Part shown: piece by piece, positions 7,230 through 13,655 of the stretch | Position numbering within the stretch: position 1 is the stretch's first letter | Layout: each line of letters opens with the position of its first letter | Assembly (NCBI GenBank): GCA_903922465.1 | Contig: CAIXTV010000213.1 | Span: forward strand, 1 to 40,789 | Source of the DNA: an uncultured bacterium | Lineage (GTDB): Bacteria > Bacteroidota > Bacteroidia > Bacteroidales > CAIXTV01 | Reading direction: 5' to 3' | DNA: 40,789 nt | The notes under the pieces: generated by a model | Told to the model about the DNA's origin: nothing | The model's database searches: none | The model's input: only the letters and a program-made list of their open reading frames with translations | Made by a program: the position numbers and the translations under genes

Positions 7230-8318
7230 ATGAAAAATACAGCATTTACTCAATTTCACGAAGCACTGGGTGCAAAAATGGTTCCATTCGCAGGATACAA
7301 CATGCCTGTTCAATATGAAGGAGTTTCAGCAGAACACGAAACGGTTAGAAAGACACTCGGTGTATTCGATGTTTCTCACATGGGTGAGTTTTGGGTTAAA
7401 GGTCCCAAAGCCCTTGAATTTGTTCAATGGGTAACTTCAAATGACGCTTCAAAATTATGGGATGGGAAAGTACAATATTCGTGTTTCCCAAATGGAAAAG
7501 GTGGCATAGTTGATGATTTATTGGTTTACAAAATTAATGATGAAACTTATTTGTTGGTAGTAAATGCCGCCAACATCGATAAAGACTGGGCTTGGTGTAA
7601 TGCTCAAAATAAAATGGGAGCCATTTTATACAATGCCTCTGATGAGATTTCACAATTGGCCATTCAAGGTCCGCTTGCTTTAAAAGCAATGCAAAAACTT
7701 ACCGAAACCACTATCACTGATATGGAATATTACACTTTCAAGAAGGTGGATTTTGCAGGGATTAAAGATGTAATTCTTTCCACAACAGGTTATACTGGTT
7801 CGGGTGGTTGTGAAATATATTTTGCAAATGAAGATGCTGCCGTAATTTGGAATGCAGTGTATGAAGCAGGAAAAGAATTTGGCGTAAAACCTATTGGATT
7901 GGCTGCCCGCGATACCTTACGCCTCGAAATGGGCTATTGTTTATATGGCAATGATATTGACGACACCACCTCCCCTATTGAAGCTGGTTTAGGCTGGATT
8001 ACCAAGTTCACCAACGAAAAAGATTTTATTGACAAAGCAGTTTTATCAGCACAAAAAGAAAATGGGGTTAGCCGCCGACTTGTTGGTTTTGAAATGGTTG
8101 ACAAAGGTATACCCCGTCATGAATATGAAATTTGTGATGCTGAAGGAAACTCTATCGGAATCGTTACTTCAGGCACCATGGGCCCTTCTGTGAAGATTGG
8201 TGTTGGCATGGGTTATGTTCCTCCAACCTACGCAAAAGAAGGCAGCGAAATTTATATTAAAATCCGCGAAAAAGTATTAAAAGCCAAAGTGGTTAAATTT
8301 CCTTTTTACAAAGGCTAA
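7230..8318 (+). CDS. gcvT: Glycine cleavage system aminomethyltransferase (T-protein)
   Basis: A 362-residue cytosolic T-protein, full family length. It takes the aminomethyl group from lipoylated H-protein, releases ammonia and makes 5,10-methylene-tetrahydrofolate. Seen in sequence: the N-terminal [13 protein letters not shown] and VFDVSHMGE segments, the folate-binding NAANIDKD segment, SQLAIQGP, the [14 protein letters not shown] block, [14 protein letters not shown], and the C-terminal barrel with [19 protein letters not shown]. Other gcv genes are not in the window. A -7 motif lies 38 bases upstream, and comB follows after 8 bases, so the two probably share a transcript. Confidence 0.96.
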
Positions 8319-8326
8319 GCGCAGCT

Positions 8327-9052
8327 ATGCCTAACACTAAGCCAACTGTCGAGGTCTGTTTTGCCCCGCCTCTTTATGAGTATAAACTGACGCAGGAAAA
8401 CTACATCACTGTTGTTGTTGATATTCTCAGAGCCAGCACTTCAATTTGCACGGCCCTTTATAATGGGGCAAACAAAATCATCCCTGTGCCAACAGTGGAT
8501 ATTGCTTCAACTTATATTGGAACAGGATACCTGATTGCTGGAGAACGCGAAGGGATCAAACTCGATATTGCAGATTTGGGGAATTCGCCAACCCAATTCA
8601 CCAAAGAAAATGTGATGGGAAGGTCAATTGTAATGACCACAACCAATGGCACACAAACCATCGAGATGGCTAAAACTGCCGATCAGGTGGCCATTGGGGC
8701 ATTCGTAAATATCAGCATACTTGCCGAATGGCTTATTGCTCAGCATACAAATGTAGTGATCTTTTGCTCAGGCTGGAAAAACAAGATGAATCTTGAAGAT
8801 AGCGTGTTTGCTGGTGCCTTATGCGAGAAATTGCTTGCCAATAATGAATTTGAAAACATCTGCGACTCTGTATCAGCAGCATTAGACTTATGGTCGATTG
8901 CCCGCCGCGACCTCAATCATTACATCAATAAAGCCCTGCACAACCAACGCCTAACCCGAATGGGATTTGAGGATGTCATCCCCTACTGTTTATCCAACGA
9001 CCTTGCCCCTGTTGTGCCTGTGTTGAAGGATAATGAGATTGTAAAGGCTTAA
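8327..9052 (+). CDS. comB: 2-phosphosulfolactate phosphatase family protein (ComB)
   Basis: A 241-residue member of the ComB family, named for the archaeal coenzyme M pathway phosphatase. In Bacteroidota the substrate is not established and a role in sulfolactate or related phosphate-ester metabolism is only inferred. Family blocks seen: VVVDILRASTSICTAL at the N-terminus, LIAGEREG, DLGNSPTQF, and MTTTNGTQTIE. It follows gcvT by 8 bases. Its last 110 coding bases (8940-9049) occur again, diverged but still mostly coding-neutral, at 9807-9916 beyond a toxin-antitoxin pair, showing that the 3' end was a point of insertion. No hairpin terminator directly follows this copy. Confidence 0.88.
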   Translation: MPNTKPTVEVCFAPPLYEYKLTQENYITVVVDILRASTSICTALYNGANKIIPVPTVDIASTYIGTGYLIAGEREGIKLDIADLGNSPTQFTKENVMGRSIVMTTTNGTQTIEMAKTADQVAIGAFVNISILAEWLIAQHTNVVIFCSGWKNKMNLEDSVFAGALCEKLLANNEFENICDSVSAALDLWSIARRDLNHYINKALHNQRLTRMGFEDVIPYCLSNDLAPVVPVLKDNEIVKA

Positions 9053-9110
9053 TAGTATTATCATTTTGGAATACTTGTAATTATTAAAATATTCCATTCA
9101 ATAATAAACC

Positions 9111-9500
9111 CTATCTTTCCCAAATTACTTTCGAATAATACTTTGGGAAATTCTCATCTTTCGAAATAATTACTAACTTTTCAACCATCCCTTGCGAAAT
9201 TATGATTCTGTCAAATGGATCACGATGGTGATAATCCAAGGTCAAAAGCTTTTGAATATGTTCGAAGGTAATGGGAAGCAACTCTATATCAAATTGACTC
9301 ATTATTTTTGAAATATCTTCAAACCCTCCATTCAATTCAAGTTTGCCTAACGACAATTTAATTGCTATTTCCCATATAGAAGCAACACTGACAAAGCAAT
9401 TTATGGTAAGGTCTTTAATAAGATTAATGGCTTTATCTGGTAATTGCTTATCACCATTAATAAACCATATTAAAGCATGAGTATCTAACAAAATATCCAT
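9111..9500 (-). CDS. PIN domain toxin (VapC-like)
   Basis: A 129-residue PIN domain ribonuclease, the toxin half of a type II toxin-antitoxin pair. The acidic metal-binding residues are visible: Asp6 in LLDTHALIWF, Glu in SIWEIAIK, Asp residues in HHRDPFDR, and Asp in ISKDENF. The start codon overlaps the antitoxin stop by one base (TAATG), giving tight coupling in the order antitoxin then toxin. It probably cleaves RNA when the antitoxin is degraded; the target is unknown. It points toward the end of comB, leaving 58 bases between the two stop codons. Confidence 0.88.
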   Translation of the reverse strand: MDILLDTHALIWFINGDKQLPDKAINLIKDLTINCFVSVASIWEIAIKLSLGKLELNGGFEDISKIMSQFDIELLPITFEHIQKLLTLDYHHRDPFDRIIISQGMVEKLVIISKDENFPKYYSKVIWER

Positions 9501-9700
9501 TACATATATTCTTTAAAATCTTCAAGGGGCGCATCAAAGTCATCATGCATAACTATTAAACCCTTTGCACACCCAAATTTCCTTTCTTTAATCGGCTCTT
9601 TCTTAGTTTTCGTTTTTAAAAAATCCACAAAATCATTAACCTCCTCCAGCATTGATGGAGGCAAAGAGCTAATTTTCGTAATTAAAGCTGTTGTATTCAT
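9500..9700 (-). CDS. DUF2281-type antitoxin
   Basis: A 66-residue antitoxin partner of the PIN toxin immediately downstream. The N-terminal SLPPSMLEEVNDFVDFLKTK segment is typical of DUF2281 proteins; the C-terminal FKEYM tail is the part expected to wrap around the toxin. A TATCTTTG promoter motif lies 18 bases upstream on the same strand. The pair probably autoregulates, as most type II systems do, but no operator was identified. Confidence 0.82.
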   Translation of the reverse strand: MNTTALITKISSLPPSMLEEVNDFVDFLKTKTKKEPIKERKFGCAKGLIVMHDDFDAPLEDFKEYM

Positions 9701-9717
9701 ACTCCTATTTATTTATG

Positions 9718-9725
9718 CAAAGATA
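9718..9725 (-). promoter_or_regulatory. -7 promoter motif for the DUF2281/PIN pair (TATCTTTG)
   Basis: A TAnnTTTG match on the minus strand, 18 bases before the antitoxin start, implying a very short leader. Confidence 0.6.
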
Positions 9726-9806
9726 CAAAATATTTGGTTTATCAAATTTATTCAATACAAATGATTAATCCCGCCCTAACCTAAGAGTGGATTTATCTTT
9801 TTCCCT

Positions 9807-9922
9807 ACAACCAGCGCCTGACCCGTATGGGATTTGAGGATGTTATCCCCTACTGTTTAACCAACGACCTCGCAGCAGTTGTGCCTGTGTTGAGGGGCAA
9901 TGAGATTGTGAGGGCTGAATAA
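9807..9922 (+). pseudogene. Detached second copy of the comB 3' end
   Basis: The 110 bases 9807-9916 align without gaps to comB 8940-9049 with 14 mismatches (about 87% identity). Read in the comB frame, 31 of 36 residues are identical and 7 of the 12 changed codons are synonymous, so this piece evolved as coding sequence in a full gene before being cut off. It ends in its own stop at 9920. No start or upstream part of the gene is present. A strong hairpin terminator follows at 9945-9977, suggesting this is the end of a once-intact comB transcript. The 9701-9806 stretch before it holds only the promoter of the minus-strand TA pair. Confidence 0.9.
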
Positions 9923-9944
9923 GATATTATTCTTTATTAGTAAA

Positions 9945-9977
9945 AAAGATTCCATCTTATGGAAAGATGGAATCTTT
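9945..9977 (+). terminator. Strong hairpin after the comB remnant
   Basis: Perfect 14-base arms AAAGATTCCATCTT and AAGATGGAATCTTT around a 5-base loop, followed by GATTTTA. Sited 22 bases after the remnant's stop codon, it is the likely ancestral comB terminator. Confidence 0.75.
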
Positions 9978-10026
9978 GATTTTACAGCAATCTTTTTTCG
10001 AAAATGTCATATCGAATAAATATTTG

Positions 10027-10101: not shown

Positions 10102-10332
10102 ATGAAAACATTAAACATCTCAATATCTGAACTCGAATTTGATAAGTTTGGAATAAAGAAAGACCATTTGACTTTTACTGAATTCATTGATATTGTCAGC
10201 AAGGAAATTTCCCGACAAACATTACATAAATGTGTTGAATTATCAGAGAAATATGGACTTTCAAAAATGACAATGGATGATATTACGAATGAAGTAAAGG
10301 CAGTTAGACAAAATGCAAAAAATCGTAATTGA
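10102..10332 (+). CDS. Antitoxin of a PIN (TIGR00305-type) toxin-antitoxin pair
   Basis: A 76-residue protein. The frame is open from a TTG at 10069, but the ATG at 10102 gives the usual beginning MKTLNISISELEFDKFG. The pattern, a short beta-strand start then a helical EKYGLSKMTMDDITNEVKAVR segment, resembles small proteins found directly before TIGR00305 PIN toxins in Bacteroidota. It overlaps the toxin gene by 20 bases. Antitoxin function is inferred from size, position and overlap. Confidence 0.75.
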   Translation: MKTLNISISELEFDKFGIKKDHLTFTEFIDIVSKEISRQTLHKCVELSEKYGLSKMTMDDITNEVKAVRQNAKNRN

Positions 10333-10729
10333 TACCAATGTCTTAGTCTCTGCACTAATTCAACGGTCTTATCCGTTTCTTATAATTGACGAACTATTCT
10401 TTGATAGTAAAATAACACTTTGTATTTCTGACGAATTATTAGAAGAATACTATGACGTTTTAAACAGAGATAAATTTGCGAAGTACCCCGACTTTGTTAC
10501 TAAAGCAGAACAACTATTAGTTGAGATTGAAGAAAAATCAACAATATATACACCTGAAATCAAATTGGATATTATTAAAGACAAGGATGATAATAAACTC
10601 CTTGAATTAGCCGATGAAAGCAATGCAGATTATCTAATTACAGGAAACACAAATGATTTCACTATTGCCAAATATAAGAATACTAAAATTGTAACACCAA
10701 AAGAATATTGGGGAAATTATAAACCTTAA
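10313..10729 (+). CDS. PIN domain toxin, TIGR00305 family
   Basis: A 138-residue putative toxin of the TIGR00305 PIN branch. Seen: VIDTNVLVSALI with the first catalytic Asp (residue 7), the conserved ISDELLEEYYDVL helix with acidic residues, DIIKDKDDNKLLELA, and the terminal ADYLITGNTNDF with the last Asp. A metal-dependent RNase is expected. It starts inside the antitoxin gene (20-base overlap) and is followed by a hairpin at 10756-10790. Its sequence is clearly different from the PIN toxin at 9111, so the two pairs are not recent duplicates. Confidence 0.87.
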   Translation: MQKIVIDTNVLVSALIQRSYPFLIIDELFFDSKITLCISDELLEEYYDVLNRDKFAKYPDFVTKAEQLLVEIEEKSTIYTPEIKLDIIKDKDDNKLLELADESNADYLITGNTNDFTIAKYKNTKIVTPKEYWGNYKP

Positions 10730-10755
10730 CAATTCATATTTATTATTTGATAATT

Positions 10756-10790
10756 AAAGCTTCCTTCTTTTGAAAAGAGGGGAGCTTTGT
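10756..10790. terminator. Imperfect hairpin between convergent TA genes
   Basis: Arms beginning AAAGCT and ending AGCTTT with inner C/T-rich and A/G-rich pairing, followed by a short T-rich run. It lies between the plus-strand PIN toxin and the minus-strand DUF2281 gene and may serve both. Confidence 0.5.
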
Positions 10791-11035
10791 TACTTATATT
10801 TACTTCTCCATTCGCTTGCCTTATGTTGCATATCCACAGAAGAGTATGTCGATTTATATTCTGATAAACTACCTTCCCAATTAAACTTAAAGTCATCAGT
10901 GTTGACCGGTTTCTTTTTGATATTTTTACCTGATTGCAAATATTTCATTGAAATAAATTCAATAAAATCAGCTATTTCGTTTTGAGCTTTTGAGGGCAAA
11001 TTCTGAAATCTATTAAATAATAAGGATGCATTCAT
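10790..11035 (-). CDS. Orphan DUF2281-type antitoxin
   Basis: An 81-residue protein. The frame is open from 11095, but the ATG at 11035 gives the family start MNASLLFNRFQNLPSKAQNE, aligning with the antitoxin at 9500-9700 (SLPPSMLEEVNDFVDFL versus NLPSKAQNEIADFIEFI). It is longer at the C-terminus (EWRSKYK). Unlike its relative, it has no toxin gene downstream on the same strand; the next gene is the convergent PIN toxin of another pair. It may be a relic of a pair that lost its toxin, or an antidote to a toxin elsewhere. Confidence 0.7.
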   Translation of the reverse strand: MNASLLFNRFQNLPSKAQNEIADFIEFISMKYLQSGKNIKKKPVNTDDFKFNWEGSLSEYKSTYSSVDMQHKASEWRSKYK

Positions 11036-11122
11036 AAAAATATATTGATTTATAAAAGTACGAAAATTTAAATTATCAGATATTAGTATGTCCATTTATA
11101 TTTTAAAGCTAATCTCAGCTTA

Positions 11123-11234
11123 CCTAAGTATCCACTTCCTCAAAGTATTTCTTCAGCCTCCGCTATTTTCTCCCAAACACAAAAAATCCCGCCCTTCCAA
11201 AAAAAAGAGCGGGATTTTCCTTTTCCCTCAACCT
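11123..11234. repeat. 112-bp direct repeat, left copy, with embedded terminator
   Basis: Matches 11820-11931 at 107 of 112 positions with no gaps. Within it, AAATCCCGC and GCGGGATTT arms around 11188-11216 form a hairpin with T- or A-rich flanks on both sides, so it could stop transcription from either direction. The two copies bracket the HicB/HicA pair. Confidence 0.9.
11188..11219. terminator. Bidirectional hairpin in the left 112-bp repeat
   Basis: Nine-base arms AAATCCCGC/GCGGGATTT with an A-rich loop; a run of A precedes and T follows. The same structure recurs in the right repeat copy. Confidence 0.75.
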
Positions 11235-11292
11235 TAACCCTGACTCAGAAAAAAAATATAAGAAAAAAGGAAACAATGAATGGAAATATTGG

Positions 11293-11300
11293 TAATTTTG
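11293..11300 (+). promoter_or_regulatory. -7 promoter motif for hicBA (TAATTTTG)
   Basis: A TAnnTTTG match 15 bases before the ATG at 11316, implying a nearly leaderless transcript and supporting that ATG over the upstream one at 11280. Confidence 0.55.
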
Positions 11301-11315
11301 CAAAAACGATTTAAA

Positions 11316-11558
11316 ATGAAAACAAATCTGAAATTGACTGCTGTTTTTGAACCCGATGAAGAATATGGGTACATTGCTTATATAGAAGAAATTCCGGGCG
11401 TAAACACTCAGGGCGAAACAATAGAAGAAGCAAAAACAAATCTCCTTGAAGCTCTCAATTTGATTATGGAAACGCGCCGCTCAATGGCAGAAAATGAATT
11501 AAAAAAGGGCTATAAATCTGAGCATAATTATATAAAAGAAGATATTGTTTTTGCCTAA
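11316..11558 (+). CDS. hicB: HicB-like antitoxin
   Basis: An 80-residue HicB-family antitoxin with the partly degraded RNase H-like fold of that family. Seen: LTAVFEPDEEYGYIAYIEEIPG, then NTQGETIEEAKTNLLEALNLIME, the hallmark of the family. No obvious DNA-binding domain follows, as in short HicB forms. The frame is open from 11280, but the ATG at 11316 is preferred because it matches family starts and sits after the -7 motif. Its stop overlaps the hicA start by one base (TAATG). Confidence 0.85.
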   Translation: MKTNLKLTAVFEPDEEYGYIAYIEEIPGVNTQGETIEEAKTNLLEALNLIMETRRSMAENELKKGYKSEHNYIKEDIVFA

Positions 11559-11746
11559 TGAAAATTGTTGATTTTATTAGGTATTTAAGGACACATCGTT
11601 GTGTATTTCTCGGAGAAGGTGGAAATCATAGTGTTTATATTAATACGGTCAACAATAGAATATCGACAGTTCCACGTCATAAAGAAATCAAAAATAAATT
11701 GTGCATGAAAATCTGTAAAGATTTGGGAATACCTTCGCCATTCTAA
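11558..11746 (+). CDS. hicA: HicA-like toxin
   Basis: A 62-residue HicA mRNA interferase with the double-stranded-RNA-binding-like fold. The catalytic His is in the GGNHSVYIN segment (His24), followed by VPRHKEIKNKLCMKICKDLGI, the typical C-terminal half. Here the gene order is antitoxin first, the reverse of the classical hicA-hicB order; this order is also common. It lies between two copies of a 112-bp repeat. Confidence 0.87.
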   Translation: MKIVDFIRYLRTHRCVFLGEGGNHSVYINTVNNRISTVPRHKEIKNKLCMKICKDLGIPSPF

Positions 11747-11819
11747 TCAAAAAATCTTAGGTATACCAAATTAACGTCATTTCATACCATAAATTAAAAT
11801 AGGTGATAATTTAAATTTG

Positions 11820-11931
11820 CCTAAGTATCCACTTCCTCAAAATATTTTTTTAGCATCTGCTATTTTCTCCCAAACACAAAAAATCCCGCCCTTCCAAAAA
11901 AAAGAGCGGGATTTTCCTTTTCCCTCAACCT
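11820..11931. repeat. 112-bp direct repeat, right copy, with embedded terminator
   Basis: Second copy of the repeat at 11123-11234, five mismatches. It begins 74 bases after hicA and includes the same AAATCCCGC/GCGGGATTT hairpin (about 11881-11913), which probably terminates the hicBA transcript. Confidence 0.9.
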
Positions 11932-11961
11932 CAACCTCAACCTCATTCAGGCGTGGTCAAC

Positions 11962-12946: not shown

Positions 12947-13118
12947 ATATAATATCCAAACATACAATCTTTTTTTTTTAAATTAATTTATTTTTTTCTT
13001 CATTCGCCTTTAAAGCAATCAAAATAGCTGAAAATAACAACTAAGATATTGAAAATATATTTTAAAAATATATCATTACCCACCTACAAATCAAATCATT
13101 ACTTATTGTCTCTCTCTT

Positions 13119-13370
13119 GATGGTCGTTAAATGACTGTTGACGGTCGTTAAATAAGAAGTGACGATCGTTTTATGACTGTTGGTGGTCGTTTTATGACTG
13201 TTGATGGTCGTTAAATGACAAGTTATGGTCGTTAAATAACAAGTGATGGTCGTTAAATGACTGTTGATGGTCGTTAAATGACTGTTGATGGTCATTAAAT
13301 GACTGTTGATGGTCGTTAAATGACTGTTGATGGTCGTTAAATGGAAAGTGATGGTCGTTTTATGTCAAGT
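13119..13370. repeat. Tandem array of twelve 21-bp units (GATGGTCGTTAAATGACTGTT)
   Basis: Twelve consecutive 21-base units without spacers; several are identical, others differ in the last six bases (GACTGTT, GACAAGT, AGAAGT) or have TTTTA for TTAAA. Each unit contains a near-palindrome GTCGTTAAATGAC; in the unit at 13287 it is perfect (GTCATT-A-AATGAC). On the minus strand the frame TTINSHL repeats without stops; all plus frames contain stops. There is no Cas gene or spacer variation, so this is not a CRISPR array. It lies between the minus-strand gene at 12897 and dnaE at 13656. Confidence 0.95.
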
Positions 13371-13655
13371 GACAAAAATTTCAATTTACCTTGCAATTAT
13401 TGCAATTTTATTTTCAATAAAACCAATCTGTGAATCTGTGGCAATGCTTTAATAAAAGCATAGTCATATCCTATTCAACAAATCAGCAATTTTCGAATTT
13501 CCAAAACATCAAATCAACAAAACTTTTAATTATTTTTCAACAAACTATCCTCCAAACATAATAAACAGTAATTTTATCGGGCAATTAGCTTGAGAAATCA
13601 TAGCGAAGCAAATCTCTAGAAACCAAATATATAAAATTATAATTCAGTTCCCCCA

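Follow-up and report, generated by a model that had tools for sequence, protein, structure and literature searches.

How does an intact gene come to be followed, within a kilobase, by a second copy of its own 3' end, with a toxin-antitoxin (TA) pair lying between the two copies? The locus that raises this question lies in the window, by which we mean the whole stretch of DNA analysed, a single 40.8-kb contig (C213) of a metagenome-derived genome with 5.02 Mb in 312 contigs. Its comB gene (8327-9052, plus strand; 2-phosphosulfolactate phosphatase family, PF04029, 4e-69) is intact, and the last 37 codons lie inside the proximal copy, R1 (8940-9054, plus strand), which runs from within codon 205 to 2 nt past the stop codon. 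The distal, detached copy, R2 (9807-9921, plus strand), starts 867 nt after the start of R1, and the two form a gapless direct repeat of 115 nt with 87% identity. A BLAST search within the genome gives this match an E-value of 4.7e-34, which rules out a chance origin of the likeness, and returns no third copy of the repeat from the 5.02 Mb.

The two copies are separated by a cassette of 752 nt (9055-9806, without a strand) whose sole content is a TA pair. VapC1, a PIN-domain toxin (9111-9500, minus strand; PF01850, 1.3e-14), is adjoined by VapB1, an antitoxin of the DUF2281 family (9500-9700, minus strand; PF10047, 6.7e-19; NF050009, 2e-25), and on these profile matches, a PIN toxin next to a VapB-family antitoxin, the two are a predicted VapBC type II TA pair. 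On the 3' side of R2 stands a stem-loop, T1 (9945-9977, plus strand), probably the original comB terminator. The first-pass annotation had described it as a strong terminator following the detached copy only. The stem, perfect over 14 bp with a 5-nt loop, is indeed present only there, but T1 does not appear in the output of a consensus terminator scan, for which a short T-run is the probable reason, and the word strong thus rests on the stem. The same annotation had counted 14 coding differences between the recurring ends with 31 of 36 residues kept, figures that agree with ours for codons 206-241, and had proposed an insertion at the end of comB that keeps the gene intact and pushes end and stem-loop downstream; the layout predicted by such an event is the one observed.

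The reading that we prefer, at a probability of roughly 58%, is that the VapBC cassette entered the 3' end of comB by insertion with a long target duplication, that this type of event recurs at TA loci, and that addiction aids persistence. A cassette holding only VapBC would have entered the gene end and come to be flanked on either side by about 115 bp of target; because target DNA would then stand on both sides, comB would stay complete and the copy of its last 37 codons would be displaced downstream together with the stem-loop. The entry step might be insertion with long target duplication in the strict sense or an integration driven by homology. Repeated events of the same kind would account for a second VapBC pair and a HicBA pair next door, and for TA loci elsewhere in the genome and in its order.

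The region 3' of comB is a series of TA modules, of which VapBC2 and HicBA are absent from the first-pass annotation. The second VapBC-like pair consists of the putative antitoxin VapB2 (10102-10332, plus strand), which has weak family matches and is 69% identical to its counterpart in another genome of the order (G113), and the PIN_3-family toxin VapC2 (10313-10729, plus strand; PF13470, 1.7e-20; TIGR00305, 4.7e-27). It is followed by a stem-loop region, T2 (10737-10789, plus strand), that is related to the region including T1 (9928-9978): the two align with a score of 37, equalled by none of 3000 between-ORF pieces of the same genome. Because the T1 region is related to T2, VapBC2 is likewise flanked by related sequences. 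Further on, a HicB-like antitoxin (11280-11558, plus strand; family matches under the curated cut-offs) and a HicA toxin (11558-11746, plus strand; PF07927, 1.2e-9) lie between a left repeat of 120 nt with a terminator-like stem (11120-11239, plus strand) and a right repeat with 94% identity to it (11817-11936, plus strand). Parts of this 120-nt element are found at seven further places, including a pair around a PIN gene on contig C25 and a pair on C8. The region also holds a DUF2281 antitoxin gene (10793-11095, minus strand; PF10047, 5.8e-9) beside which no toxin gene was seen, and short similar units in a tandem array (13118-13372) immediately upstream of dnaE.

The same layout is found elsewhere in this genome, around several TA families. 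A VapBC pair on C33 is flanked by 224-nt copies of intergenic DNA (97% identity), the PIN gene on C25 by 46-nt terminator copies (91%), a HipBA pair on C30 by 59-nt copies (83%) and a lone MNT gene on C117 by 79-nt copies (81%). The closest parallel is on C29, where a RelBE/ParE pair lies between 121-nt copies (96%) of the 3' end of a histidine-kinase gene, an architecture that equals that of comB: the gene end is kept, the TA pair follows, and then comes the detached end. An MNT-HepT module on C4 (L088) lies between 72-nt copies with 86% identity and, as do the MNT-HepT structure on C14 (L098) and the Fic structure on C6 (L090), fails our automatic complexity filter. There are eight PIN loci in the genome; three are repeat-flanked (C213, C33 and C25), one is unflanked (C149) and four lie within repeat arrays.

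Among the stretches chosen for a PIN gene or a repeat, the structures of the window, C33, C25 and C149 pass the filter, C149 with two structures, one of which holds a HicB-like gene; the other (L081, repeats at 8131-8206 and 8920-8997) holds a small membrane-protein-like gene and adjoins a RelE-like pair, both assigned by eye. We also sampled 99 stretches by contig number, 1.13 Mb in all. Here 12 repeat-insert-repeat structures pass the filter (L087, L091, L112, L117, L140, L141, L147, L152, L170, L176, L179 and L189), only three of them with a TA-type gene (L140, L141 and L170). A separate count of TA genes used queries drawn in part from these loci and is therefore no independent density. 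The remainder of the 12 have other cargo, such as a 467-aa gene on C223, an aspartyl-protease-like gene on C42 or no recognised gene on C226, or have their repeats within paralogous genes. L147, on C37, is a 48-nt direct repeat pair (18-65 and 321-368, 94%) with a short spacer, and in L189, on C237 (14707-16109), the end of an AHSA1 gene is duplicated around a non-TA cargo, VOC and DUF4287 genes, and the detached end has decayed.

To compare TA loci with other loci we turned to other genomes of the order, taking about 1.5 kb per side where the contig permitted. Of 96 TA loci, 12 are repeat-flanked and 84 are not, against none of 84 controls (Fisher p = 3.8e-4). Under the final filter these are 7 of 57 HepT or DUF2281 loci and 5 of 39 further HepT loci; the controls, for the most part core genes, comprise 54 comB loci and 30 VOC-family loci, and comB, whose match exceeds the TA matches in length, is a slightly harder target. 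At random points in the sample of the present genome, a background that comes from a single genome, 118 of 20,000 (0.59%) are flanked. In E. coli K-12 none of nine TA loci is repeat-flanked, so the layout is not universal.

The counts depend on the filter in the following way. By eye and without a filter, 13 of the 57 loci appeared flanked. The filter drops four for low complexity (L201, L206, L236 and L246), L225 (75% identity), the array L198 and L202 (coding paralogues, with a repeat of merely 43 nt), and adds L209. A first preset version gave 6 of 57; its length bias lost a tRNA case (L240), and the corrected version gives 7. Two of the 57, L237 and L249, are adjacent hits at one place. 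The 39 HepT loci are the next in hit-list order, less two (a hit at a contig start, and one that adjoined a hit already taken) and with L325 excluded, a locus of the present genome with internal stops and array-like surrounding repeats. One weak case, L328 (49 nt, 80%), is counted.

Across the other cases in this genome and the 12 elsewhere the repeats range from 45 to 365 nt, and what is duplicated differs from place to place. Targets elsewhere include the end of a DUF3006 gene, part of a Schlafen-type helicase gene and the DNA after a trkH-like gene (by eye), and one is a 365-nt block with a complete tRNA-Phe gene in each copy. The first-pass annotation had seen the replacement of a gene end as the mode of integration; as a rule this does not hold, since terminators, intergenic DNA and a whole tRNA-Phe locus serve as targets too. 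In G113 two TA pairs, which belong to the two families found beside comB, are surrounded by three occurrences of one repeat, apparently through serial insertion. A stretch of another genome (G102, L256, 2952-9558) holds a row of MNT-HepT-like pairs, identified by eye, with repeated spacers, and resembles an array built by repeated insertion.

The cassettes themselves are small. In nine single-module cases they measure 577-880 nt and fit closely around the TA genes; others are longer. No mobility gene was found among the cassette proteins scanned, which comprise VapBC and others, with the 12 cassettes of other genomes partly covered. Fifteen cassettes have no terminal inverted repeats, the longest exact inverted match between their terminal 60 nt being 4-9 nt, and no ends in common by eye, and we reject a transposon on this basis. 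An integron cassette array is rejected as well, for the repeats vary by locus and that of comB has no third copy.

These data also bear on the idea that the locus is what remains of an integrase-borne island, with the repeats as att sites and the TA pair as the last of its contents. Islands that rebuild a gene end, such as e14 in icd, carry an integrase and a short core, and direct repeats at the end of an intact gene are typical of them. The comB locus shares with the e14 type an intact target gene and a detached 3' end. It differs in the integrase: for nine window proteins, comB and the eight that follow it ahead of dnaE, Pfam gives no integrase or transposase match, and NCBIfam gives none for eight of these. 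Moreover the repeats differ per locus, some targets are not genes, and the cassettes share no ends. We therefore consider an island origin highly improbable and, with a 752-nt cassette that carries only VapBC, reject it here.

A simpler account would be that the end of comB was duplicated in tandem, that the TA pair fell in later by chance, and that the copies then drifted apart. R1 and R2 are mutually closest in everything searched, as this would require, and repeat-insert-repeat structures free of TA genes do occur in this genome. What makes a chance arrival improbable is the difference between TA loci and controls, seen at targets that are unrelated, together with the tight fit of many cassettes around their TA genes. 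Less probable than any of these readings is an artefact of assembly. The genome is metagenome-derived and in many contigs, and repeats are classic sites of misjoining. However, the comB copies differ by 13%, so that reads can distinguish them, and the same layout is present in independent genomes and in a published example from Microcystis PCC 7806; we regard an artefact as extremely unlikely.

The manner in which the two comB ends diverged contains further information on where they have been. R1 and R2 differ at 15 positions, of which nine are synonymous, five are non-synonymous and one shifts the stop codon, which becomes a sense codon with a stop after it. Free drift of the detached end would be expected to make about 61% of the changes non-synonymous, and the observed 5 of 14 has a probability of about 0.03-0.06 under it. 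The kinase end on C29 has five third-position changes and one non-synonymous change (1 of 6). Pooling both ends gives P = 0.005 against free drift, rising to 0.012 when stop-codon changes are omitted or scored as non-synonymous. Scored against a family profile from 58 relatives, the distal end reaches 59.3, close to the 61.6 of the proximal end, a value with P = 0.085, 0.04 or 0.008 given 5, 7 or 11 free substitutions. Of the five residues that changed, three have both forms fairly often among relatives. A likelihood ratio favours selection on both comB ends by a factor of 3-8 for omega of 0.1-0.3 but falls to 0.42 at omega 0.05. There is thus modest support for both ends having been under selection during most of their divergence, in a small test that hinges on the assumed omega. 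The first-pass annotation had stated that the detached copy evolved inside a working comB; the silent bias agrees with this, at about 0.05 for comB alone and more strongly when pooled, and the reversal at low omega speaks against it.

If both ends were under selection, one of them may have come with the cassette from another lineage. On the codon pattern it seems fairly likely that one comB end first diverged in another lineage and was then brought in, together with the cassette, by homologous recombination. Taken as the explanation of the whole arrangement, DNA from a related strain, carrying a comB 3' end and VapBC, would have recombined into comB, leaving a proximal end that is partly foreign and a distal end that is native. 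This could happen by homology on one side and illegitimate joining on the other, or through a circle by one crossover. The silent bias at the ends of comB and of the kinase gene, the nearly equal profile scores and the residue forms shared with relatives are what one would expect. Set against this are the dependence on omega, the detached ends that have decayed with indels in two other cases (L217/L254 and L189), and the relatives found, which are no nearer than the same order and include no known donor. In addition, the repeated gene ends in G038 are nearly identical to each other and far from those of congeners. On balance we consider this explanation possible but rather unlikely.

Insertion with target duplication has a direction, on which relatives bear. 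Other genomes found in the searches for relatives and through the order belong to the same order only, and the best comB relative has 56% protein identity; the named loci with a comB relative number four, two in Cytophagales MAGs and two in Bacteroidetes MAGs, with 36-44% identity, and on this ground we assign the host to the Bacteroidota. In 37 of 58 relative loci comB has a gcvT match nearby. None of these 58 loci, with at least 1.4 kb of downstream sequence in 54 of them, has a second comB end or a match to the TA proteins of the window. A pair in G106 has 76% identity to VapC1 and 84% to VapB1, whereas comB of the two genomes is 54% identical, and this TA pair seems to move horizontally, across families. 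For comB we infer insertion rather than loss.

A comparison is offered by G038, where the end of a DUF3006 gene stands on both sides of two TA modules, in copies with 98.9% identity. In contigs of the congeners G402 and G398 this repeat is single and adjoins the same right flank; they end 355 and 537 nt past the repeat, which leaves room for a second copy. A contig of a third congener, G318, has part of the repeat, also once, with about 4 kb of sequence on both sides. The left flank in the congeners is non-homologous. Because the G038 ends are closer to each other than to those of congeners (98.9% versus 67-86%), they point to a local duplication at G038. This is the pattern that insertion with target duplication predicts, and the comparison partly bears it out, with a single copy in congeners seen in part and an incomplete empty site. 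At a further locus, in G061, there is no usable empty site because the relatives in its genus are just 70-77% identical in the neighbouring gene. A stretch of G038 (L252) also contains, at 69-211, a dispersed repeat about 143 nt long that has many copies in G038 and in other genomes of its genus.

The repeats recur, and TA loci have them more often than the controls that we used. This suggests that TA pairs enter chromosomes by duplicating local DNA, and the pairs may then guard the repeat arrangement from loss. Long direct repeats would permit deletion by a RecA-type process, restoring the empty locus, and it is because such a deletion would cleanly remove the pair that we would attribute persistence to addiction: a TA pair would penalise the cells that lose it, and repeats that carry one would outlast other repeats. 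It is plausible, as a hypothesis, that addiction protects a repeat prone to recombination. Tentatively, and at well under even odds, we extend the idea to TA modules of many families in this order, which would be self-stabilising cassettes that insert with long target duplication, are left between deletion-prone repeats and are kept by addiction. If this is true, the repeat-flanked loci are genomic footprints of chromosomal TA addiction in action. Two questions have long been asked of TA modules: how those free of mobility genes enter chromosomes, and whether pairs in the chromosome work as addiction modules. A frequent, recognisable scar around unrelated TA families makes both of them testable.

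Several known systems invite comparison. The TA cassettes of super-integrons are pairs within a repeat-rich array and have been proposed to stabilise such regions (PMC2654758); as far as the accessible text goes, the integrase there acts on repeats common to the cassettes, whereas here each repeat is a local sequence. The one published TA case with such repeats that we found is in Microcystis aeruginosa PCC 7806, where the accessible account describes a ParDE-like pair between two identical 152-bp direct repeats (PMC7935541). That pair, like those described here, lies between long direct repeats directly past another gene. The differences are that it concerns one locus, that its repeats are identical and contain an inner inverted repeat, and that the account, as available, claims no general pattern; its first repeat begins 14 bp past the neighbouring gene's stop codon, which leaves that gene's end outside the duplication. 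In the literature searched, with subscription journals mostly outside it and papers judged largely at abstract level, we found no general report of long target duplications or long flanking repeats for TA modules.

The nearest relatives of the process are restriction-modification (R-M) systems, for which insertion with long target duplication was reportedly described by Nobusato in 2000 and Furuta in 2010. R-M systems are reported to duplicate long target stretches of variable length, on the scale of 100 bp, when they insert (PMC3874152, PMC3031569). The accessible part of PMC3874152 treats the mobility of both R-M and TA systems and gives the long target duplication for R-M only. As far as these sources go, the two share a small addictive gene set, often with no known mobility gene, between long direct repeats of variable length. 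They differ in cargo, R-M genes there and several TA families here, and in the present genomes there is apparent serial insertion at one site, with copies diverged by up to about 20%. The comB case is one instance of a recurrent repeat-TA-repeat layout that extends the R-M mechanism, rather than a gene-end device of one TA pair.
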